Shown one piece after another: positions 8,101 to 28,200 of a stretch of 64,000 bases of DNA. Numbering within the stretch: position 1 is the first letter of the stretch; each line of letters opens with the position of its first letter. The notes beneath the pieces were generated by a model, which saw nothing but the letters and a program-made list of their open reading frames with translations, did not search any database and had not been told where the DNA came from. The translations under genes were made by a program, and so were the position numbers. The stretch is from Bolinopsis microptera (lineage: Eukaryota; Ctenophora; Tentaculata; Lobata; Bolinopsidae): the NCBI RefSeq assembly GCF_026151205.1, contig NC_087078.1, forward strand, positions 12,135,118-12,199,117, read 5' to 3'.

Positions 8101-11100
8101 TTACTTCCTGTTGTTGTTCAGGATTTAATTCTAAGTCAGTCATCGTGTTTAGGTCTTAAAATCGAGGTAATTTATTGAATAGTCGATTATAACATGATAT
8201 GTCGGACCGACATTGTCGGTGATGATGTAACATGTAAACTTCTCCTTAAGGACGTAGCCAGGGTTCAGCGTAGTACCCTCGCAAATCAGATAAGTACCAG
8301 CTGGTACGCCCTTAGAAGACTACTACTAATACTATGTCGGAACTAAGTCGGGTCGGACTTAGTTCCCTTAGAAGAGCTTTAATAAAATACTAACCATCAG
8401 TGACAGTAAGGAAACTGTTGGTCCCGGTGATGCGCTGCCCAAAAAGGGTGCGGTTAGGGATAGCGTCTACTTTTGTGAATATCGTTATCTCCGTTAGCAT
8501 TGATCTGATAATATCTGGATCCGCCGTGAAGAACTGAGATAATTTGAGAATGGAAATCAGCACAATATTTGAGTGCCTAACAAATAAGGTTGCCCTGAAT
8601 CTCGTTGAAATTTCATTAAGTTTATTTCTTTTAACTTTTCAAAATACAGGATTACTCACCTTGGGGCTGGCATTCCTCCAAAACACTATCGTGTCTCCAT
8701 ACTCAATAATCCAATCCCTCAACATGTCAAACAGCCTGGAATTAATTAATCACTGTTTAATGACTTATTAAATCACTCTATAATGACTTACTAATTGATC
8801 GCTGTAGTGTGAAATTTCTGCAAACTAAGTAAAGAGTATAAATTCATCTCAACTTCCACAACCCGTTTTAAACAGAAACAATGAACTAACTTATTTTGAG
8901 CCTGAGCCTCCCTCATCTGGCCATAGTTGCCCTCGAGAAAGCTCTCTCGAGGTGGACCAGGGTAGTCCTTAAACTGCTTGTGTTGGTACATCAGGAACTG
9001 CACGTGAGACAGGCAGAAGGCTACCATTCCAGAGAAGAGGAGTCCTGGAACTCCGTACTCTTTTATAGTCCTGGTGGGCAGGGTTTGTTAAGAATTGTGT
9101 GTAGAAAGTCCTGGTGGGGTTTGTTAAGAATTGTGTGTAGAAAGTCCTGGTGAGTTTGTTAAGAATTGTGTGTAGAAAGTCCTGGTGGGGTTTGTTAAGA
9201 ATTGTGTGTAGAAAGTCCTGGTGGGTTTGTTAAGAATTGTGTGTAGAAAGTCCTGGTGGGCGGGGTTTGTTAAGAATTGTGAGTAGAAAGTTGTTATCGT
9301 CCTGGTGGGTTTGTTAAGAATTGTGTGTAGAAAGTCCTGGTGGGTTTGTTAAGAATTGTGTGTAGAAAGTCCTGGTGGGGTTTGTTAAGAATTGTGTGTA
9401 GAAAGTTGTTGTCCTCTGGTGGTGAGGATTGTGGGTGGGAGTGCCAACTGATTGACTGTAACCGTTCTCTATTTTTCTGTATTACATGAGAAATAAAGAA
9501 AACTTCAAAAATGTACTCATAAATTTGAGACGTTTTGTCTGATCTTTGTGACCTGATTCTACTTACCCAAGTGTGTGGTGAACATCAAAGTTGTTGAAAC
9601 ACAGCACCGTAAATCCAAAAGTTGCAAGAACTGAAATATTGAACGATAAATTTCGAAATGAAGATATTGGTCTGGCCTTCATTTGCACCATGCTTCAGCT
9701 TCGAATGTGAAAATAAAGCCTCTGAGAATTAGATAGATATAGTAATATGTATATTAAAGTCACTATTGTGACGGTACATTAGAACTAGACAGAAACAAAG
9801 TGCGAAGGGCCTGAACGGAACCCCTCGGTTTCAGTTCCTTGTTTAACACTGCCGTACACTGTACAGCAAGGACATTCGCCGGGTTCTCCAAGGATGGGCA
9901 CATAGCTCACTACTACTACTACTTACTAAGTTTTAGAGGGCGATCTGTGAACAGACAACTACCTCATTCCCAACTATAGGAACCAGAATTCCTATACTAT
10001 CCCAACAAGTTACACCAAGCATAGTTGTACCTACCATAATAGTAGTGAAATGCATTAATTAACGGATGAAAATATCTGTACCTCCTAGAGTGATGAGTGC
10101 TTTTTCCTCTTTGTTGTTAATCTTCATACTCTGTTGGTTTAGAGTCCAGTTAACATCTTATCTTGTAAATTTAAATTAAGAACATAATACGGCTGCAGTG
10201 AGATTAACAAATAACCATTGAGAGATTTTCATAAATTTCTTAATTTGAGTCGCTGCCATGTTATTACTGTACGCTTTTGTCTTTCTTCATACAATTTTTA
10301 TAAGCGTTCTTATAACACTTCGAAACGTTCATACAATTTTTCAATTTTGCAGGCAGGATTTAAAGATGCGATCGTTCCAGAACTTCAGATCGGAGAAGTG
10401 TACAGAAGTTTACGGATATAGTTCCAACACACCCTCCAATTCTTCTCCAGAGGTCGAACAAGGTGAGTTGTATTTCTCAGACATGTGTAAACCTACTTCT
10501 AGTGTACCTACTTCTAGTGTACCTACTTCTAGTGTACCTACTTCTAGTGTACCTACTTCTAGTGTACCTACTTCTAGTCTACCTACTTCTAGTGTACCTA
10601 CTTCTAGTCTACCTACTTCTAGTGTACCTACTTCTAGTGTACCTACTTCTAGTGTACCTACTTCTAGTCTACCTACTTCTAGTGTACCTACTTCTAGTGT
10701 ACCTACTTCTAGTCTACCTACTTCTAGTGTACCTACTTCTAGTCTACCTACTTCTAGTCTACCTACTTCTAGTGTACCTACTTCTAGTCTACCTACTTCT
10801 AGTCTACCTACTTCTAGTGTACCTACTTCTAGTCTACCTACTTCTAGTGTACCTACTTCTAGTCTACCTACTTCTAGTCTACCTACTTCTAGTGTACCTA
10901 CTTCTAGTCTACCTACTTCTAGTGTACCTACTTCTAGTGTACCTACTTCTAGTCTACCTACTTCTAGTCTACCTACTTCTAGTATACCTACTTCTAGTCT
11001 ACCTACTTCTAGTGTACCTACTTCTAGTCTACCTACTTCTAGTCTACCTACTTCTAGTGTACTGTGTACCTACTTATAGTCTACCTACTTCTAGTCTACC

Positions 11101-14100
11101 TACTTCTAGTCTACCTACTTCTAGTCTACCTACTTCTAGTGTACCTACTTCTAGTGTACCTACTTCTAGTCTACCTACTTCTAGTGTACCTACTTCTAGT
11201 GTACCTACTTCTAGTCTACCTACTTCTAGTGTACCTACTTCTAGTGTACCTACTTCTAGTCTACCTACTTCTAGTGTACCTACTTCTAGTGTACCTACTT
11301 CTAGTCTACCTACTTCTAGTCTACCTACTTCTAGTATACCTACTTCTAGTCTACCTACTTCTAGTGTACCTACTTCTAGTCTACCTACTTCTAGTGTACC
11401 TACTTCTAGTGTACCTACTTCTAGTGTACCTACTTCTAGTCTACCTACTTCTAGTGTACCTACTTCTAGTCTACCTACTTCTAGTGTACCTACTTCTAGT
11501 GTACCTACTTCTAGTCTACCTACTTCTAGTGTACCTACTTCTAGTGTACCTACTTCTAGTGTACCTACTTCTAGTCTACCTACTTCTAGTGTACCTACTT
11601 CTAGTGTACCTACTTCTAGTCTACCTACTTCTAGTGTACCTACTTCTAGTCTACCTACTTCTAGTCTACCTACTTCTAGTCTACCTACTTCTAGTCTACC
11701 TACTTCTAGTGTACCTACTTCTAGTCTACCTACTTCTAGTGTACCTACTTCTAGTGTACCTACTTCTAGTCTACCTACTTCTAGTCTACCTACTTCTAGT
11801 ATACCTACTTCTAGTCTACCTACTTCTAGTGTACCTACTTCTAGTCTACCTACTTCTAGTCTACCTACTTCTAGTGTACTGTGTACCTACTTATAGTCTA
11901 CCTACTTCTAGTCTACCTACTTCTAGTCTACCTACTTCTAGTCTACCTACTTCTAGTGTACCTACTTCTAGTGTACCTACTTCTAGTCTACCTACTTCTA
12001 GTGTACCTACTTCTAGTGTACCTACTTCTAGTCTACCTACTTCTAGTGTACCTACTTCTAGTGTACCTACTTCTAGTCTACCTACTTCTAGTGTACCTAC
12101 TTCTAGTGTACCTACTTCTAGTCTACCTACTTCTAGTCTACCTACTTCTAGTATACCTACTTCTAGTCTACCTACTTCTAGTGTACCTACTTCTAGTCTA
12201 CCTACTTCTAGTCTACCTACTTCTAGTGTACTGTGTACCTACTTATAGTCTACCTACTTCTAGTCTACCTACTTCTAGTGTACTGTGTACCTACTTCTAG
12301 TCTACCTACTTCTAGTCTACCTACTTCTAGTCTACCTACTTCTAGTGTACCTACTTCTAGTGTACCTACTTCTAGTCTACCTACTTCTAGTGTACCTACT
12401 TCTAGTGTACCTACTTCTAGTCTACCTACTTCTAGTGTACCTACTTCTAGTCTACCTACTTCTAGTCTACCTACTTCTAGTCTACCTACTTCTAGTGTAC
12501 CTATTATCTAAGTTCAGAATCGATACAATCATTAAATCTTACGTGTACTTTCTACTCAGTAATCACTGATGGTTTACGAAAAACCAATCATCCTTGTTTT
12601 GCGTAAATCATTTAATCCCATTCTGTCTCATCAGAAATATAATAAAGTACTAATGAAGATCAGTCAATAATGCATATTATATAAATCCATATTGCATAAT
12701 TGACTGATCTTCATTACATTTGCAGCGCTTTATTTTCATAAAAGCACATTGACATACGCGTAGTACACTTCATAATTTATAAGTTATAAAGTGCACTGGA
12801 TATGGCCATATATCATTATCATATCATTTCTAATCCGGCTAATGAATCGTTCAGAAGGAGCCCCTCATCGTAAGGATATTCAGTCGGTTGTTGACAACAG
12901 TGAGGCAACAAGAAGAAGGTCACTTCCAGCTGTTCCAGAAGAAAATACTCCCATCGCCATAGGATTATTTCCTCCGGGGTAACTACTTTCATTTACTTTT
13001 TTATGTCACATTTCCTTTGGACGAAATTTCTTTTAATGTTTTTTAAGCCTGTTGTTTTGTTCGTGTTTTTCGGACTTTTGCGCTTAGTAATAGTAGTTCA
13101 GTTTCCTGTTGCAAATATGCTTCTTATCGTCATATTATAATTGTACTTGTAGCTAGTCGGCTATTTTGGTTATGTTCATATAATGACAACGAAAACATGA
13201 TAAAAGTCTACCAAAATCAAATAGGGATATGTTGAAAGGCTTTGGTAATATTTTTTAAATGATAGATCCAAATTATTATGGTAAAATTATCCCATGATCC
13301 ATCTTGTAAAATTATTGCAAATTTTCCATCAATGACTTTATTTTAATTTATTGGCATTTGATGGATGCAGATGGCTAATGGTTTCAAATTGCTACAGAAA
13401 GAAAAACTGCTGGGCTATCGCGAAATAATTATTTCAGTGTTATTTATTTTAATTTTGAACGGACATTAAAATTAACGCTCGAAGGCTTTCATAATCAGAA
13501 TTTAATTTGACTGACTTATCGGACTTTATTTGAACGGGCATTAAAATGAACGCTAGGGCATCCAGCATCCAATTAATATCCGTTCAAATGAAGTGTAAAA
13601 AAGTAATACACTCTCTTCACAGACTATACAAATACAATAAGCAGCAATCGACTTAATTTCCTATCTAAATTAAACAGAAATGTAAACACCCAAGCCCAAC
13701 TTGGAATTTTGAGAAATTAAATGTAAACATGCGCGATGTCCGCTTAAGTTTCCCACAAGATTCATCCCACGCAGTTTGGAATCACCTCACTTGTTTTTAG
13801 TATGGGTGTAAAACACACAAACATAATATGTATTAATTTCAAATTTTGCACCACGAAATTTGCTTGCTCAGAAAAAGACAAAATTTTGCTGAATTGAAGG
13901 ATCAAAATGAGATAAGCTTCAAAAGGTACGGTACATGAAAGGTAAAATATAAAATCATTTACAATTATCTTTTAGCCCTATCCATGGTCTTTCTCATTAT
14001 ATTTGTAAACAATTTTAATTGTTTATTTTACAGAAATCAAAACCTTTTCCGGCGCTTTCAACATCTCATTTTCAGCAGACAAATGTCGGATCCCACCAGC

Positions 14101-16664: not shown

Positions 16665-19600
16665 CTATACTTTGGTATCTGCATCCTTTTGGATCTGTTC
16701 ATCACCCTTCTTCATTCCTTTCTGAGTATTAGTGCCCACAGATGTGAACTGAAGTAAGAAAATTTATTTATTAGTAATAATATTACCACAATCATGCGAC
16801 GGGGTAAAATAAAATGAGGTATCGACTGATAAATATAATATTCACTTTGGCAGCACTACTAAAAAATATATATATCAACAATGTCTCATAAACCATTCTC
16901 GAAGCATAATATAAATTCTGATAGCTGTAGGTTGACAATGAAATATACTAATAGCTTATATAGCTAATTGCTTGATGCATGATGCATTACTCACTTTTTT
17001 CTTGATGCTATCATCATCGTTGACGATATCGTTTGCGATAATCTCGTCAATGTCTATTCTGAGCTGTACAGAATCGGGCATATCCGGGATAAATATATCT
17101 ATCATCTTAACAACTCCTGAAAATTCTCTTGTCAATCTCAGTTTGACTTCTATAAATAGAATTGATAGGAAATACAACTTGAAACATCGTATTACAAAGT
17201 TCTTTCTGAAACATACGATAAACCGGAAAAAAGTAGGCATGTACAATAACATGCCAGCTGAGCTTCTACCTTACCTAAAACAACATGTATAATAACATGC
17301 CAGCTGAGCTTCTACCTTACCTAAAACAACATGTACAATAACATGCCAGTTGAGCTTCTACCTTACCTAAAACAACATGTACAATAACATGCCAGCTGAG
17401 CTTCTACCTTACCTAAAACAACATGTACAATAACATGCCAGCTGAGCTTCTACCTTACCTAAAACAACATGTACAATAACATGCCAGCTGAGCTTCTACC
17501 TTACCTAAAACAACATGTACAATAACATGCCAGCTGAGCTTCTACCTTACCTAAAACAACATGTACAATAACATGCCAGCTGAGCTTCTACCTTACCTAA
17601 AACAACATGTACAATAACATGCCAGCTGAGCTTCTACCTTACCTAAAACAACATGTACAATAACATGCCAGCTGAGCTTTTACCTTACCTAAAACAACAT
17701 GTACAATAACATGCCAGCTGAGCTTCTACCTTACCTAAAACAACATGTACAATAACATGCCAGCTGAGCTTCTACCTCACCTAAAACAACATGTACAATA
17801 ACATGCCAGTTGAGCTTCTACCTTACCTAAAACAACATGTACAATAACATGCCAGCTGAGCTTCTACCTTACCTAAAACAACATGTATAATAACATGCCA
17901 GCTGAGCTTCTACCTTACCTAAAACAACATGTACAATAACATGCCAGCTGAGCTTCTACCTTACCTAAAACAACATGTTCGAACACAATGACGAACAGTA
18001 GCCTAACAGTCGTGAGTTTCCAGAAGAAGAGATTGTAACTTCCCTGTTCGTCTCTATAAGCCCAGTACCTACAAGGTTCCGAGTAGCCTGTCATCTCCGG
18101 GGAAGCCACTGCCAAGCTGAAGTTAACATACCCTGACAGCATGTTCTTTCTTTTGGCATTCTTCTCCCTGAAATCCATCGCGAACAGCATCATCGGTAAG
18201 AAGTCGGAGGAGAATGCTATTATGAAGGCGTTGCACACCACCGCTATCTTACCCACTGCAGCTAGGATGTCAGACCAGATTCCGATGTCTTTACTCTTAA
18301 ATCCAATAGGTCTGCGGAGCTGAGCTACAAACTTGAAACTATCCAATCTCATTTCCAGGAGGTTATTCACCAGGGCTAGTAGGGGCGCTAAAGGGAATGC
18401 AGCTACGAAAATGGTCACGAACCCATACTGGATAACCATTTCCAAATACTCCGCAAATACATCGCGTGTCTCAGCTAGCTGGTAATCCCTCTCCCAGGGA
18501 GATTTCGTCTTCTTTGTTGGGTCTTTCTTCTTCTGTTTCTTCGGTTTTATCGCTTTTAGGCAGCTGTTCTTGTTGCTGATAATGATGGGGATGACGAATT
18601 GGGAGAAGGTGAAGATGAACTGTTTTCCAGCCAGAATGATGGCCATCTGTGTAGCCAGCTCAGAGATACAGCCACCTGGAGGGCAGTCTTCCATCTTTAC
18701 CCCAAAAACTCTTGGGTATTTCCCGGGGTACCTGCGACAGTACATCAGTGAAATTATATCATGATATGGTAATAAATAACAATCACACAACTCACTATGC
18801 AGTAAATCAATGACCATAGTTCCTCTTTATCTTGAGAAAGCTTCATTTTCTCCTCGATTATAAACGTTTGAGGTTACAGGCTCACTGAAATCGTGAAATG
18901 CCATATTGACTAATAAATGAAACATACCCATTTATCTTGCCTTTGAAGAAGCCAATGTAGACGAGAGTACTGTAGAAGTTGAACACTTCGAAAATATACC
19001 TCCTGATGGTCAGATTATTCTCGTACTCAAACTGAGTTTTGTGGTTTTCCCACTCGGTCATGGTAATAGCAAAGTAAGTGTAGTACTTGCTCATGATGAT
19101 GATCAGTGTCAAACTCATCACCCCAGCACTCACTGCTGATAACCACTTAGCGTACTTGGCTGTGTCTGGATTGTTGGAGAGAGCCAGGTAGACCGCCAGA
19201 TCGTAAACAATGACCGCCAGAGCGAATATGACCACGCACCCCAGGATTACGAGTATTGAAACGAAGGTTGTGATGTATCTGGGATACCGTTTCCGGCTGC
19301 TCATGCACGGCTCGTTGCGCTGTGATCTGGGGTTGAACTTCCACTTGTCGCAGTTCTGGGTGTAGGTGGGTCTTATTTGAGCGGTGGAGTGTTGTGTCTT
19401 GAGAGTTCCCCAAATGTGGCCCAGCATGGCCTCCTTTCTCTTCCACATTTCTAGAAAGTATGCCACCCAAATGGACATGAAGATGCAGAAGAGGAGAGTG
19501 GCGGGGTTGTTCACTGACGTTGCTTGCTGGGCTGTTTTGCAGATGTCTTTTATGAAGTACATTTCGCAACCTTCGTCCTCACACAAGGGACACATTTTGT

Positions 19601-20942
19601 ACTTTTTACCGCTCTCACAGATTTCAGTGCTTATGAAATCTTCTCCTCGAATGACAATTCCATATCCAAACACCAACGTTCCCATGATTGCTGGGATGAA
19701 GAGTGATTGAGTGTAAAAACCTGTCCACGCAAAATACATCCCGACTTTTTCCCCGAAGTAGTTTCTTATTTCGTTGAGAGGTTGATATTTGTTCCACTGT
19801 CGGAAACTGGCCCAGTAGAATCGTAGAAGCTGCCTGTGGTTCTTAGGTCGTTGAGTTCGGTCGATTTCATATGGTCCGTCATGTAGAGGGTAAGCTGCTT
19901 TGTAAGTTCCATTGGCTACCAATTCATCCACCCCAAATAGTTCTCTGTTTCCCTCTTTCAAGTAAACAGCCTGCTGCAGAATTCTGTAGACAACTATGCT
20001 TCTCTCAGCTGGACTGAAGAAGTCTCTCCTTTCAAAACCCAGGAACTTATCAGCATGGTGAACGACGAAAGGAGCTTTGACGATCTTTGGAAAAAAATTC
20101 TTCCTCATGTTGGCATAGAAGGTGTCTTTCCCGTGCAAGAAGTGAAATATCTTGTCCTTAAACCAGCTGAACAACCCTGACTTCTCGTCCCCCTCGTCAT
20201 CGTCATCACTGGACTCAGACTCTTCATCAGACATTTTCGGAAAGTCATCAAACATCCGCTTGTTCATCTTTTTTGTCTTCTTTTCGGCTGCACCTCGATT
20301 TCGTTCCAAATGAGCTTTTCTATCACATTTCAGAGCTTTCTCGAAGCCGAACTTCTCTGCCCACTTCATAAGTATCCTATTGGGTACACTCAGCTTCACA
20401 ACCCGCAAATGGTCACCAGACGCCCTGAACTCGTCTGTTTCTATAGCAATACCCATACCCTTAATATTCTTGTGAAAGTTTCTCCTGTATTTCACTTGTT
20501 TCTCTTCCTGCCTTCTCGCGTCTATCAGAATCTGATCTGCTCCAGACTGATCGAAAGAACTTTTCCTCCCGGCCAGTTTAACAGTTGGTTGAGGGGTCGC
20601 TGCTCCATCACCTCCAGTAGGGACCTGCAATGGAGTTGAATCTCCAGATTTTAGCTCTGGATCCTTCACATGTACAGGAATTTTATATACGAGAACAAAA
20701 TCAATGTCTAAACCTTTGTTTGGCTCTTTGCTGAACGTTCTGGCGGGATCTATTGGAAAAGCATAACTACCATCAGGTTGAAACTCTTGGTCTACCCCAC
20801 CCATCTCATAAGAAATGTAATCGTTGGTGTTTGCTCGAGGAGAGGCATCTTTTCCTAAATTTTCATCGGTGGTCAAACTATTTTTGAGCTGCTGCATAAG
20901 GAAATCCTGAGGCAGTTCCTCGTATTGGCCATTTGACTGCAT
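16665..20942 (-). CDS. Anoctamin (TMEM16 family) membrane protein, 4 exons, about 995 aa
   Basis: Exons (minus): 18928-20942, 17965-18731, 16995-17116, 16665-16748 (TAG), with matching phases. The start is probably ATG 20942; the frame is open for a short way upstream. The N-terminal cytosolic domain carries the anoctamin signature IDFVLVYK and an acidic run near residues 235-250. Membrane segments begin at YFAWTGFYTQSLFIPAIMG, followed by a Cys-rich extracellular loop and the conserved TM7-TM8 region (EYLEMVIQYGFVTIF, NNLLEMRLDSFKF, RRPI, DIGIW). Anoctamins are Ca2+-activated Cl- channels or lipid scramblases. The TM7 and TM8 acidic Ca2+ ligands are present, but the TM6 Asn/Glu pair appears lost (KQFIFTFSQFV). 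The short polar C-terminus continues after IPDMPDSVQL. The second intron starts with a 16-copy repeat of its own splice donor. Confidence 0.93.
17238..17965. repeat. 46-bp minisatellite carrying 16 copies of the anoctamin 5' splice site
   Basis: The exact period is 46 bp. The donor falls at 17965 in the real exon and at 17275 in the most distal copy, which is 15 periods away. On the minus strand each unit contains ACATGTTGTTTTAG|GTAAGG, the last 14 nt of exon 17965-18731 plus its donor. The units are nearly identical, with single C/T variants. Confidence 0.95.
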
Positions 20943-21458
20943 TTCTGCCAATCGTTTTTCATGAGATGTTATCAGTTATAAAGAAACTTTTAATGCTGCT
21001 AATCAGATACAATGCTATTAAATGCTAGTGCTTCTCTTACTAATTAAATTGGTTGATTACTAGGTCATTGAAGCACTTGACGTGTCCAAACGTCAGAACT
21101 GCTGGAGGTTAACGATATCGATTGGTTTAAATCATCACAAAGAAGAACAGCGGGAAACCTTGAAACTCTTAAAGTGTAAAACTAAAAAGAGCAGTTATAT
21201 TACCTGCAGCCAGTCCGTAATACCAACTGCTGTTGTAATTAACGAACCTATTCCTCTAAACTCCCCAAGTTCGGCTAATAGAAGCAGAACGTTATGATCA
21301 CGTGACAGGTATGACACGTGGGTAGTTGGCAATATCCGCTCATACTCTAGCGAGTTGAGACTGCCCGCACCTCATTAACTTCCTGGAGTTCTATTGGACG
21401 GTAAGCTCAGCTCACAAGCTCCGTTTTTACAGGTTCAGGTGTTGTGTGATGTGAAGGT
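20943..21458. promoter_or_regulatory. Anoctamin 5' flank with paired CACGTG E-boxes, possibly bidirectional
   Basis: This lies upstream of the anoctamin start and just before a possible plus-strand first exon at 21459. CACGTG occurs at 21299-21304 (context ATCACGTGAC, close to the TFEB/USF consensus) and at 21315-21320. No TATA box stands out. The regulatory role is inferred from position and motif only. Confidence 0.35.
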
Positions 21459-22274: not shown

Positions 22275-25200
22275 TCAATGAGCAGATGTAAACTTATGGG
22301 GAGAAGTCTGGTGAGTCACGTACAGCACTCCCATTGTAATAACCGCGGATACCAGGAATATAACATCAAACCACCTATGATAAAAGTTGAAATGGATGTT
22401 CCCGAGCACCTCCGTAATGATGACCCGGAAGTCAGGCGGCAAGTTCATCCTCATCAGCAAAACACACGAAACAAAGTACATTCCCATTATTTGAGCCAGG
22501 AACAGGACGAGGAGGTTGCTGGATTTGGCGCTGGAGATAGCGTAGAACCATTTGATGAGGTTTATGAGGAGACCCCGGATTGAGCAGACGATGATGATGC
22601 CAACGATGATGAAGCTGAGATGTTGTGCCCAGAATTGAGCGTCAAATTTGAAGCCCAACCAGTTTGCTGAGATCTCTAGTCCTCGGGAGATGGGGTCCTT
22701 TTTGCCGACTCTGTCAAACACAATGTTCACTGTGCTCATGAATATCTTGTATGCGAGGTAACCTGAAATTATGTGTTTTTAAAAAGCTGTTTTAATTGAA
22801 GTAACGAAATTATAGCAGGCAAATTGTTTTGCTGAAACCAAAATCATGTAATATTTATAGATAGTGCGGCCCTCTGGACCGGGCCAATAAAATAAAATAC
22901 AATAAATAAAAAGCAAGTCGCTATATTCACCTGAGAAAATGTGACCAGTAAAGTTGAAATATTTTCCCAACAGTGTCCTACTCATAGCTAGACGTTCTCT
23001 CATCGAGTTCATATCTACTATTTCCAAATACAGCTGAAAAGTTTCATCATTTAAAAGATGATAATTGCCTAAATGTGTTAAAATTTAGGGCTACAATTGC
23101 AGATCAATATGACAGATTTAAACAACTTTCCGAGATGGTCCCACAGAATATATAAGTGATTTAAACCTGTCTAGAAAGTTCCTCAAGAGATTCCACCTCA
23201 TCGTACAACAATGTTACTGTTTCATTTGTGCGGAGTGAAGAGGTTAGTCTTGACCACCAGCCTTGATCCTCTGAAAGGAGACACAAAGTAAGCAACCTGT
23301 TTCTCTGGGCCGCAATTGTAGAATTTTAATAGTACGATATCATTATTAGATCGGTTGAGTCCCTTAGCCACTATCAATAGAATTCGCAAGAAAACAATGC
23401 CTCTAGATCGTAATATTCCCATGGTAACCACAACTGTTAATAACATTAAATAACCCAAGTAGTAAGTACTTGGCTTCCACACTTGCATTCTACCGTCCTA
23501 CTGCACTCAGTCCTAGTTAGGTGTCAGCACTACACTACATATACCGGCCTATCATCCCACATCCTCACTTCCACACTTGCATTCTACCGTCCTACTGCAC
23601 TCAGTCCTAGTTAGGTGTCAGCACTACACTACATATACCGGCCTATCATCCCACATCCTCACTTCCACACTTGCATTCTACCGTCCTACTGCACTCAGTC
23701 CTAGTTAGGTGTCAGCACTACACTACATATACCGGCCTATCATCCCACATCCTCACTTCCACACTTGCATTCTACCGTCCTACTGCACTCAGTCCTAGTT
23801 AGGTGTCAGCACTACACTACATATACCGGCCTATCATCCCACATCCTCACTTCCACACTTGCATTCTACCGTCCTACTGCACTCAGTCCTAGTTAGGTGT
23901 CAGCACTACACTACATATACCGGCCTATCATCCCACATCCTCGTCTTTGATCAAATAATTTGAGGCACAGTGTGTAACACTATAACTATAGTTGGCATTT
24001 CTGTTGGGCAAGAACGTTTTGGCAATATATTGGCAGTTGGGATAGTGCTAAGCACTCTAAACTATAAAGGTGCATGGGAATGTTGGATTATGGTATGGTT
24101 GTCATATTGCTGGTGTGGCGTCCGCAATATTATCAGTCGCCTTTGAAAATCTACTACAGATTTTCTTTCTGTATATCACTATACAGTTCCTCTTTAGAAA
24201 AAGTGCATGTGACAAGTAACGAGACAAGGATGCTCTAGGATCAGGAGCGACAAATGATCAATTGTTCTAGACGTGAGGCTTTCTGCAGTAACGGCCCTAG
24301 CGAACAGGGGGATGGTTGTTCGCTTGAGTACTATGATGCGGTTATACAAGTCTGGCAAAACAATTTGTGACCTGCCTATTGGCCGGGCGCCGCCGTAGAC
24401 TCAACACATGGTGTGTGGGGTATTTACCTCGGGCACACACCTTAATCTCTCGACCGGCGGGTCACACCCAAATCTCCTGCTCCAACTCTTTCAAAGGCTG
24501 GTACCCTACTACTACGTGGCCAGAAGGAAATTCTTGTAGGAACTCTTAATGTACGAACAATAAGAGAACAATACAAGAGGGATGAGCTGGGTGTATGCAT
24601 GAGGGATAGTGGCGTACATATTTTGGGCATTCAGGAGCATCGGGTAGTACATAGCACTGAAATCGAGTATCAAGATCTTGGAAGCTCTCACCTCATAACA
24701 ACTTCGGCATGGAGAACCAGCAATGGGGCGGCTGCTGGTGGGGTTGGTATTGTCTTGGACAAAAAGACAGTATTCAACTCATTGATTAGTGTATACTCAC
24801 ATGACAGGAGGACGATGGTAGCCAACTTTGCAGGGAACCCGGTCACAACTGTTATTGTGACTTATAGCCCGACAGAGGGGGCGACTGTCGACGAAGCAGA
24901 AAACTACTACGACAGCCTTGGTGGTGCCATCGACCAGATACCAGCCCACAACTTACTATTCGTTGTAGGAGACCTCAATGCGCATGTCTCATCATCAGGA
25001 AACTGGACATCCTTCCACAAGGGTCCAGCAAACCGAAATGGTAGACTGCTAGAGGATATGCTGTTGGAGCGACAGCTAGAAATCACAAACACCAGATTTC
25101 AGAAGCGAAGAGGTAAACTCTGGACATATCTCTCAGATATGAGTCAAAGTAAATCTCAAATCGACTTCATCATTTGCCGGAAGAAATGGCGGAACTCCGT

Positions 25201-28200
25201 CAAGAACTCCGAAGCATATGGTAGTTTCCACAGTATTGGCTCGGATCACAGAGTAGTCGTAGCAAGGGTAAAGCTTAGTCTACGGATAAGCAAGACGGAG
25301 AAGAGGGCTCCGGTTCTGGACTGGTCTAAACTTAAAACTGATATCGCTCTACAGGAGAGGTACACAGTGGAAGTTAAAAACCGCTTTTCCATACTTGAAA
25401 AGGATGATCAGACGGCAACAGAAAGGTACCAATGCTTTATTGATGCGAATAGGACAACTTCTCGACTTTTACTACCTGAAAAGGAGAAAAAGAAAAGATG
25501 TAAAATCTCAGCGACTCCAAGTGTTGAAATTGCCAGGCTGAAGCTGAGGGAATGTAGCATAAAATACCACTCAGATGCTACAGAAGACAACCGAATAGCT
25601 GTCCAAGAGGGCAAACAGAAGCTAGGCGATGCTTATCAAGCAGCTAAAGAGCACCTGCTGGAGGGGCAGGTCCGGGAACTGGAGGAAGCAAGTTGGCAGG
25701 GCAGACATGCTAAAAGCTGGACCATGATCAACAAGATCACAGGTAAAGCTCCATCATATACTGGCAAAATCAAGGGAAACTCACCAACGGAAAGGGTTCA
25801 GAAATGGAAGGACTATTTTGCTACTCTTCTCGGCTCACCACCGACGGTAGAGAACGCGGAAGAGGATATTGATCCAGTCCACCCACCTCTGAATATCGGA
25901 ACACAACCGTTTACGTTGGATGAGTACAGAAAAGCAAAGTCCAGCATAAAGGAAGGGAAAGCATGGGGTGACGACAACATAGCCCCAGAAGTCTTAAAAC
26001 GATGCGACCTTGATCAAATTGTCTTAGACTTCTGTAACAATGCTCTATTGAAAGGTGAGAAACCAGACCAATGGTCAACTGCCAACATCATACCAATTCC
26101 AAAGAAGGGCGACCTTAGCGAACCAATGAACTATCGGGGAATAAGCTTGTCATCCCTAGTTGCCAAGTCTCTAAACAAGATGGTTCTAAACCGGTTGAAG
26201 CCAGAAATCGAGACAATTCTGCGTAGAAACCAGAATGGATTCAGACCAGGAAGGTCAACAACTCAACAGATATTGGTACTGAGACGTCTTATAGAGGGTG
26301 TCAAGAGTCGGAAACTGCCAGCTGTTCTGACATTTATAGACTTTAAGAAGGCTTTCGACAGTGTACATCGTGGGAAAATGCTAAAGATTCTAGAAGCTTA
26401 CGGCATTCCAGTCAAAATCGTGCAGCTTATACGGCTCATGTACGAGAAGACAATGGCCAAAGTCCTAACTCCAGACGGAGAAACTGAATTGTTCGAGATA
26501 CTTGCAGGTGTGTTACAGGGTGATACCTTAGCACCTTACCTCTTTGCAATAGTCATCGACTACTGTATGAGGCAAGCCATAGGCGATGATGCGGAGCGAC
26601 TTGGACTCACCCTCGAACGTAGAAAAAGCAGAAGAGTGGGGCCCAAGATCATCACCGATGTGGACTTTGCAGATGATATAGCACTTATATCTGAGGACAT
26701 GGACAAGGCTAACGAGTTCCTGCTCAGAGTAGAATCGGCGGCAGCAAGCGTGGGACTACACATAAACGAAGGCAAGACCAAGGTCATGACACTGAATATG
26801 GAGGATCGATCTAGCGACCTACAAAGTCGATCCGGGGAAGCCATAGAAAATGTAGATGATTTCATCTACTTAGGCTCCTGGATTGAGAGCACAGATAGGG
26901 AGATAAGGGTTAGAAAGGGAAAAGCGTGGGGTGCCCTACATAGACTGAAGGATATCTGGAAATCCAAACTCTCAAAGAGCCTAAAGATTAGATTGTTCAT
27001 AGCGGCTTGTGAATCAGTACTGCTCTACGGATCAGAAACCTGGACACTGACAAAGGCTCAAGAGAAAAGTTTGGACGGGACATACACAAAGATGTTGCGT
27101 ATGGTGCTGGGTATCTCATGGAAGGACAAGGTCAGCAATATAACTTTGTATGGTAGCCTCCCAAGGCTGTCAAACAAGTTACGAAGCAGGAGATTAAAAA
27201 TGGCGGGACACTGCATCCGACATCCTGAGCTACTTGCCAGTGATTTAGTCTTATGGGAACCTACGCACGGTAGAGCACAGCAAGGCCGACCAAGACAAAG
27301 CTACTTGTCTATGTTACTGAAGGAAGTTGGGACAAACTCTAAAGAGGAACTGCGAACCCTGATGCGGGACAGGGATATATGGAGGGGGTTTTCTGGCGTA
27401 GATCGGACTTAGCTCCGACATAGTAGTAGTAGTAGTAGTAGTAGTAAGTACTCACTGTCGCTGACTTGAGCTGTACTCTTTCTCTCCTCCAGTATCAGTT
27501 TCTTCTTCTTGTTGGCTATCATGTCCAGTGTCTGCAGCATTCTTTTCTCCATGTTCTGGGATATACTTGTTTTTATGATTCTGCTAACCACGCATCAGTG
27601 ATAACAATTATATAAAAATAAAAGTATGCCATTGGGCTACCGCCATTTTGCAGGTAATAATATTTTGAAAGTTAGTTATTTGCGTGCGGTTTAGCTCATA
27701 TTATCAAACTGACACAGAAAAATGGAAATGTCTAAGGCGATCAGTACTCACGTTTACATCCAGTGACGTGACAATCCTGGCAAAGTAGTCCATGTAAGTG
27801 TAGGGACAGTTCACGGCTCCAAACCCAGAGAGGATAGCCATCAGAGTCACTCCTACCACTCCTACTCGACTGGAAATATCATTCGTAAACAGAATAAAAC
27901 ATGTCGACGTGCAGATTGTAGAGATGGAGGAACAAAGTGTGGATAGGTTTGCCAGGGTGCGTTCAACTATACCCTGTCAAGTGACATGGTATAGCAGAAC
28001 TATAGGTCCCACTGACCCAGCTGATGGTCGTGTAGTGCGGTCAACTCTATCTTTATGATTCATTTTGCATGTTGATTCATTTGTAGTGCGGTCAATTCTA
28101 TCTTGATGATTCATTTTTCTTTTTGGTTACGTCCCGATCACACGATCGAATTGAAAATATATATGATAATTAGGTCTGGAGCGCTGAATACTCAAATAAG

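Follow-up and report, generated by a model that had tools for sequence, protein, structure and literature searches.

The locus analysed here raises the question of how a gene keeps its message intact when the 5′ splice site of one of its exons is present many times in a row, and whether the surplus sites serve a purpose. Near its 3′ end, an anoctamin gene has an exon that runs into a minisatellite, and the repeat unit includes both the end of this exon and its splice donor. An earlier note on this DNA had offered two alternatives, namely that the donor next to the exon is always chosen or that the array is a switch of variable length for truncating the channel.

Structure of the array at the exon border

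The window, which is the whole stretch of 64,000 nucleotides analysed, was searched for tandem repeats with TRF, which placed the array at 17238-17978 (period 46, 16.1 copies, 98% matches, score 1440). The features of the gene around it are the following:

18882..20975, minus strand: open frame containing the long anoctamin exon upstream, which encodes the dimerisation domain and the beginning of the channel domain
17965..18731, minus strand: 767-nt anoctamin exon, the third from the end; the final 14 nt are part of the repeat unit (Pfam and anoctamin-1 structures)
17238..17978, minus strand: 46-bp minisatellite straddling the exon-intron border; 741 bp, 16.1 copies
17959..17964, minus strand: donor 1 (GTAAGG), the exon-border donor and the one expected to be in use (gap-free paralog alignment)
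17269..17918, minus strand: donors 2-16, every 46 bp from 17918 to 17274; GTAAGG, save GTGAGG at 17780
17117..17964, minus strand: intron, 848 nt (158 nt with a single-copy array), with TTTTCAG at its end
16995..17116, minus strand: next exon, 122 nt, GVVKMIDIFIPDMPDSV...SIKKK (computed splicing and paralog alignment)
16665..16748, minus strand: last coding exon, FTSVGTNTQKGMKKGDEQIQKDADTKV and stop, placed by reading frame and splice signals alone

On the minus strand, the array covers 14 nt within the exon and the initial 727 bp of the intron (17978-17238). The far end at 17238 agrees with the earlier note, whereas the near end, which had been put at 17965, lies at 17978 and thus 14 nt inside the exon. 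The array is made up of 15 full units of the form GT...TTTTAG and a partial one with ACATG at its end. The exon (18731-17965) terminates with ...GAACATGTTGTTTTAG followed by GTAAGG, the context of the donor on the minus strand being ...TTGTTTTAG/GTAAGG. As the note had proposed, the unit combines the last 14 nt of the exon with the GTAAGG donor: the identity with the exon end is exact over 14 nt (ACATGTTGTTTTAG), 32 nt including the donor are intronic, and a donor is present in each unit. The claim that the intron presents 16 near-identical donors was borne out as well. Sixteen TTTTAGGT sites were identified on the minus strand, their GT positions extend from 17964 (first) to 17274 (last), and all 15 successive spacings are exactly 46. 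The donor sequence is GTAAGG in 15 of the 16 and GTGAGG in the remaining one (position 17780).

A chance likeness of 16 near-identical copies is ruled out. Because tandem repeats are difficult to assemble, a collapse or false expansion of the repeat in the assembly was considered, but it is very improbable: the 15 full units deviate from their consensus by scattered substitutions (6 in 690 nt), and similar arrays are present at unrelated loci (see below). Two of the variants were seen near both array ends (units 1 and 14 and units 3 and 13, numbered from 0), which would fit an outward growth of the array from its centre. When the whole genome (G000, 264.65 Mb) was searched at the DNA level, with very common words skipped, the unit matched at the anoctamin locus only, with seven matches, all inside the array. 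An introner element was rejected on the basis of this restriction to a single locus, with the limit that common words can be missed in such a search. An RNA folding test of the array gave no special fold (z = +1.37) and no structure hiding the distal donors.

Tandem arrays are frequent in the window (52 TRF rows), and some of its other features are recorded here as separate observations. A 15-bp array of about 136 copies (10491-12503) is open in several frames on both strands, including LEVGR repeats, and is possibly a coding repeat. A 94-bp array at 23474-23942 (5.0 copies), located approximately 700 bp away from an exon with a match to ABA_GPCR (22275-22778), has 100% identity among its copies, which suggests a very young expansion. 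A 35-36-bp array (9081-9406) lies immediately 5′ of an open frame resembling, by eye, the first exon of a cytochrome P450; this putative cytochrome P450 frame had no match in Pfam. On the plus strand, a 988-aa open frame (24446-27412) appears by eye to encode the endonuclease and reverse transcriptase of a non-LTR retrotransposon. A run of 44 C (2070-2113) may mark a trouble spot of the assembly. In the genome as a whole, probably that of a comb jelly, no nuclear-receptor zinc finger was found; this negative is weak, since the control genomes had none either.

Predicted exon junction with the border donor

The exon bordering the array is delimited by the acceptor CGCAG/GTACC and the donor TTTTAG/GTAAGG. 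Its positions 17966-18730 matched the Pfam family Anoctamin (8.8e-64, residues 1-255) and anoctamin-1 structures (8.8e-56, the alignment reaching residue 254 of 255). The preceding open frame, 18882-20975, matched Anoctamin (2.2e-61) and Anoct_dimer (2.2e-43); by reading, the long exon within it ends near 18928 at GTATGT. The intron between these exons, the upstream neighbour of the array intron, measures about 196 nt and is near the 158 nt of the single-copy version of the latter. The exon downstream of the array, searched alone, had no match in Pfam.

Joining donor 1 to the TTTTCAG acceptor yields FEHVVL/GVVKMIDIFIPDMPDSV (FEHVVL/GVVKMIDIFIPD as aligned). In a multiple alignment, this junction was gap-free against the paralogs L005 (LEHVILFMVAVIWITAPD) and L006 (LEHIILSLVVIMWLMVPE), which are both intronless and have a single open frame across the entire domain. 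With both paralogs reading gap-free through the junction, a constant choice of the proximal donor would be the better-fitting of the two alternatives mentioned above. Pairwise BLAST alignments to L005 and L006 ended short of the junction, reaching no further than query residue 178 of 296, and the paralogs L008, L010, and L011 aligned poorly at this site. In experiments with duplicated donors, the intron-proximal copy is often favoured when all copies are strong; donor 16 would win by this rule, which counts against the use of donor 1.

Predicted outcome of distal donor use

The products of all 16 donors were computed. A premature stop, reached within 18 codons, was predicted for each of the 15 donors other than the one at the border, in accordance with the earlier claim that distal donor use truncates the protein. 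The stop had been placed inside the repeat after about 14 codons for the next donor; a stop is indeed met, but its position differs. Donor 2 adds 46 nt, and translation would run into the next exon and stop at its third codon, whereas with donors 3-16 a TAA follows after 16 added codons. This TAA lies in donor 2 itself (AGG/TAA). One donor in three preserves the frame, yet meets the TAA of donor 2 all the same.

The computed truncation within 16 to 18 codons from any distal donor is what a switch would need in which distal donors are used on purpose and a channel without its C-terminal part is made, the number of copies setting its length. We regard such a switch as hardly credible. The extension peptide, GKVEAQLACYCTCCFR, is derived from the repeat, and a stop upstream of further introns should trigger decay of the message. 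Moreover, the type of array is common to unrelated genes (Wnt, dynein, Sdh5, sushi), with comparable arrays at exon ends and exon starts, a pattern to be expected if such mutations are tolerated as a class; since these genes have the same design, a function specific to the channel is disfavoured, and this part of the earlier proposal is not upheld.

Arrays at other exon ends

Sister arrays were sought in the genome with three AGGTAAG words at a spacing of 27-57 bp and with a variant search in which the third word was mutated. Among the matches listed by both searches, 20 arrays were examined (the anoctamin array, L015-L018, and L019-L033). C1:1110504 (unit of L018), C1:1468596 (beside L019), and C2:1178831 (unit of L032) were left out, as were three arrays with periods of 7, 8, and 11 bp. 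An exon end was found at the array start in 13 of the 20, based on good homology in five, weak homology in two, and inspection by eye in six cases. The remaining seven comprise an exon start recognized by eye on the opposite strand (L031/L069), the peptide of which had no match in Pfam, and six arrays at which no exon was seen (L020, L021, L023, L024, L032, and L033).

Exons at donor arrays matched dynein heavy chain (1.3e-8), Wnt (4.4e-7), and Sdh5, a succinate dehydrogenase factor (3.4e-6); in a sushi-domain gene, it was the exon following the array that matched (6.6e-6). Weak matches were obtained for exon ends of nucleolar GTPase 2 (E 0.33) and of a PDZ gene (E 0.31). The exon ends determined by eye (L017, L022, L025, L027, L028, and L030) were recognized by an open frame and splice signals, and their peptides had no match in Pfam; the array of L027 has only 3 nt in common with its exon, and that of L028 contains only two exact AGGTAAG copies. 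The sushi array has 44 copies, and the PDZ and Sdh5 arrays have more than 70 each (AGGTAAG counted over two overlapping pieces). For the GTPase array, about 65 copies were counted among the matches listed, or about 145 if it is unbroken through the last listed match.

Five further arrays (L064-L068) were fetched from a search for YYYYAGGTAAG triples. Three of them are located at exon ends (L065, L067, and, by eye, L068) and one at an exon start (L064, by eye), while L066 is without an exon. The exon ends from this search included a TPR (6.9e-4) and a WD40 exon (1.0e-4), both matches being under Pfam's own cut-offs. L068 (G000:C7:2965700-2967500) and C8:3955733 are distant loci with a near-identical 41-bp donor-bearing array, and this likeness suggests a duplicated gene or segment. 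In L016 (G000:C1:883500-887000), a 171-bp in-frame duplication (1360-1686, 1.9 copies, 100% identity) inside the dynein heavy chain exon adjoins the donor array; it is either a very recent exon-internal duplication or a doubling in the assembly.

Arrays at exon starts

For the acceptor side, 15 TTTTCAG arrays were fetched from searches with TTTTCAG triples and with a mutated third word. Four of them adjoin an exon start (L038 and L044, L048 with weak homology, and L037 by eye). The Pfam matches of exon starts with arrays were TSP_1 (thrombospondin-1, 2.6e-15) and Peptidase_M1 (4.3e-16), besides the weak match of L048 to MFS (E 0.0068). No clear exon was found at the other 11 of the 15; in L039, L041, and L045, the array continued or its edge was unclear. 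No asymmetry between donors and acceptors is claimed: TTTTCAG triples were fewer, at 1,077 against 195 for the reversed word, and the corresponding counts with a mutated third word were 52 and 14, but the usage of the two words differs.

Units of the array as potential mini-introns

AG/GT bounds both ends of the unit in all 15 complete units of the anoctamin array, each of which begins with GT, ends with TTTTAG (GTAAGG...TTGTTTTAG), and is followed by G. This arrangement would allow step-wise splicing, in which each internal AG/GT acts as acceptor and donor (dual-specific or recursive site) and the array is removed in steps. In a variant, splicing at a distal donor would create an AG at the junction, to which donor 1 of the same transcript would be joined in a second round. 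Both routes end in the identical mRNA, so that the copy number would be invisible. The motif resembles recursive splice sites, and YYYYAGGTAAG triples were counted 296 times genome-wide, the reversed pattern not once. However, an intron of 46 nt is very short for an animal, and the 3′-end triplet of the unit is AAG or GAG, a poor acceptor, in 10 of 15 sister arrays at exon ends as opposed to CAG or TAG; three of the five sister arrays with CAG or TAG had been picked for a pyrimidine-rich end. Since the 10 sister arrays with poor acceptors still exist, a good acceptor is not required for an array to persist, and for this reason both the step-wise route and its variant are judged improbable. The best-looking candidate for step-wise splicing is L064 (G000:C8:7268820-7269126), which has nine TTTCAG/GTAAGT joints at a spacing of 37 bp immediately 5′ of its exon start found by eye.

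A bolder version would make the array a self-healing intron, whose units are complete GT...TTTTAG mini-introns, so that any first donor leads to the same mRNA and the copy number drifts freely. More broadly, the lineage would possess a stock of exons, each followed by tens of donors that are nearly identical and compete (more than 70 in at least two genes), and the choice among them would obey a rule, first transcribed or exon-defined, which copy number cannot break. We give this version little credence.

Frequency of arrays at exon borders

The existence of a class of border arrays is solid, but an enrichment over chance is not established. It is rather unlikely that exon ends are hot spots which actively promote the birth or survival of minisatellites in this lineage, so that donor arrays are far above random duplication. 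In favour of hot spots, 13 of the 20 AGGTAAG arrays examined begin at an exon end. AGGTAAG triples numbered 4,085 versus 35,462 single sites (11.5%), compared with 121 versus 27,883 (0.4%) for the reversed word, and with a mutated third word AGGTAAG gave 204 matches and its reversal 17. However, word-match counts are driven by long arrays and differ widely among words. The control word AGTAGAG reached 5,405 matches, above AGGTAAG, compared with 1,774 for the reversed word; AGTGAAG, searched with its third word mutated, matched 69 times and the reversed word 86 times; and AGGTGAG gave 149 against 84. The raw triple count (4,085 vs. 121) was therefore dropped as proof of donor enrichment, because the 5,405 matches were obtained with a word of the same letters, mostly from one dispersed family among the matches listed. 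This dispersed 28-bp minisatellite family (AGTAGAGTTCGGTAAACCCCTCCCTGCT; G000:C1:738633-748031) dominates the listed control matches.

Matches to Pfam were obtained for 3 of 20 arrays (anoctamin, Wnt, and Sdh5) and for 0 of 20 non-array AGGTAAG sites (p = 0.23). This comparison is a loose one, as the frames on the array side were picked by eye and the six exonless arrays were not submitted, while the non-array side consisted of 27 all-frame peptides from 16 of the 20 sites, four sites having given none of 20 aa. A test of codon usage in the flanks, in which 4 of 19 donor, 2 of 15 control, and 3 of 15 acceptor loci were above 90% of the null, did not separate coding from non-coding sequence. 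The control-array loci (L049-L059, n = 11) were used in this test and in the count of array density.

The density of arrays elsewhere, 15 in about 211 kb, predicts a number of similar order under neutrality, which also argues against hot spots. These 15 arrays (27-57 bp, at least three copies) comprise two in the window including the anoctamin array, three at paralog loci, and 10 at loci fetched around other arrays, so that the sample is not random. With units of about 40 bp, approximately 0.3% of positions would be covered by such arrays. If thousands of AG/GTAAG donors are assumed, tens of exon-end arrays are expected by chance; the real number, at a guess, is tens or several-fold higher.

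Proposed origin and splicing of the array

Taken together, we consider it likely that the array is a tolerated minisatellite straddling the exon border, of which an intact junction remains, donor 1 is used, and the other copies are removed with the intron. The array would be tolerated because the outermost junction stays intact. It may have started with the tandem duplication of a 46-bp stretch across the exon end, containing 14 exon nt, the donor, and the remaining intronic part, perhaps between the short ACATG repeats that flank a single unit, one of them exonic and one at the far end. Slippage or unequal exchange would then have expanded it. The spliceosome would pick the border donor, donor 1, and the remaining copies (2-16) would be removed as part of the intron, the length of which would have risen from approximately 158 to 848 nt. 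If a distal donor is used now and then, a premature stop and presumably nonsense-mediated decay would follow; the worst likely cost would be a small loss of message that depends on copy number, and the array may be neutral. A like process appears to have occurred at other exon ends and starts of the genome. The periods of the exon-end arrays give no sign of selection for frame or of translation, as expected of an intron: 4 of 16 are divisible by 3 (p = 0.60 vs. one third), a number that falls to 3 when the 55 bp reported by TRF is taken for the irregular dynein array.

The choice among identical neighbouring 5′ splice sites has been studied mostly in artificial duplications, with two or three sites each. 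The genome analysed here offers natural tests, since Wnt, dynein, Sdh5, anoctamin, and other genes have 5 to more than 70 near-identical donors, and there are counterparts on the acceptor side. The border arrays also illustrate one route to longer introns without damage to the message. The value of the anoctamin array thus lies in a natural experiment on splice-site choice, not in a switch.

Comparison with known systems

The closest known system is the 31-bp VNTR of the human CBS gene, which is located at the boundary of exon 13 and intron 13 (PMC5188458, PMC1395315) and is designated c.1444_1467+7(16_21), with 16-21 copies (PMC2630376). As in the anoctamin array, the unit spans the exon end and the start of the intron and is present in many copies (PMC2630376). 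According to its HGVS name, it consists of 24 exon nt and 7 intron nt and should include the donor (PMC2630376). Judged by the same features, the anoctamin array has a unit that holds the exon end with its own donor, in 16.1 near-identical copies. It differs in its 46-bp unit (14 exon and 32 intron nt) and in being known from one assembly; the CBS repeat is a known human polymorphism, whereas the anoctamin array has counterparts at other genes of the same genome. In a review, CBS activity is reported to be lower and homocysteine higher when the CBS VNTR has more copies (PMC5188458). By analogy, this suggests that copy number may matter, which counts against the reading of a tolerated array. 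A second variant of the human gene, CBS 844ins68, duplicates the junction of intron 7 and exon 8; one copy is strongly favoured, and the message is normal (PMC2630376). By position, this is an acceptor junction, although the paper writes of a splice donor, and it parallels the arrays on the acceptor side, with two copies only (PMC2630376).

Dual-specific splice sites in tandem repeats have been described for UBC and VCX3A (PMC10809524). These repeats and the anoctamin array both have AG/GT in every unit, which makes each unit potentially an intron. The UBC units code for ubiquitin (PMC10809524), whereas the units of the anoctamin array are intronic and their role as acceptors is putative. In duplicated human genes, minisatellites at exon-intron borders have been reported to alter gene structure (PMC2812944). 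These are described as creating novel introns (PMC2812944), whereas the anoctamin array lengthened a pre-existing one. The duplication of AGGT stretches into GT...AG units is discussed with the Rogers model, ATP2A1, and 24-bp repeats of fission yeast (PMC4974935). Unlike in such intron gain, no new intron arose at the anoctamin locus: the array occupies the donor side of an intron whose acceptor is not part of the repeat. An origin of this intron by AGGT duplication was accordingly rejected, as 121 nt on its acceptor side (17117-17237) are not covered by the array and an intron of 158 nt is left with one copy.

Among the open-licence papers listed in a literature survey, no genome-wide class of border arrays was found beyond the CBS, UBC/VCX3A, duplicated-gene, and intron-gain cases. 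The kind of feature is thus already known from the human CBS repeat; what is less ordinary is the number of genes that have it, some with more than 70 copies.
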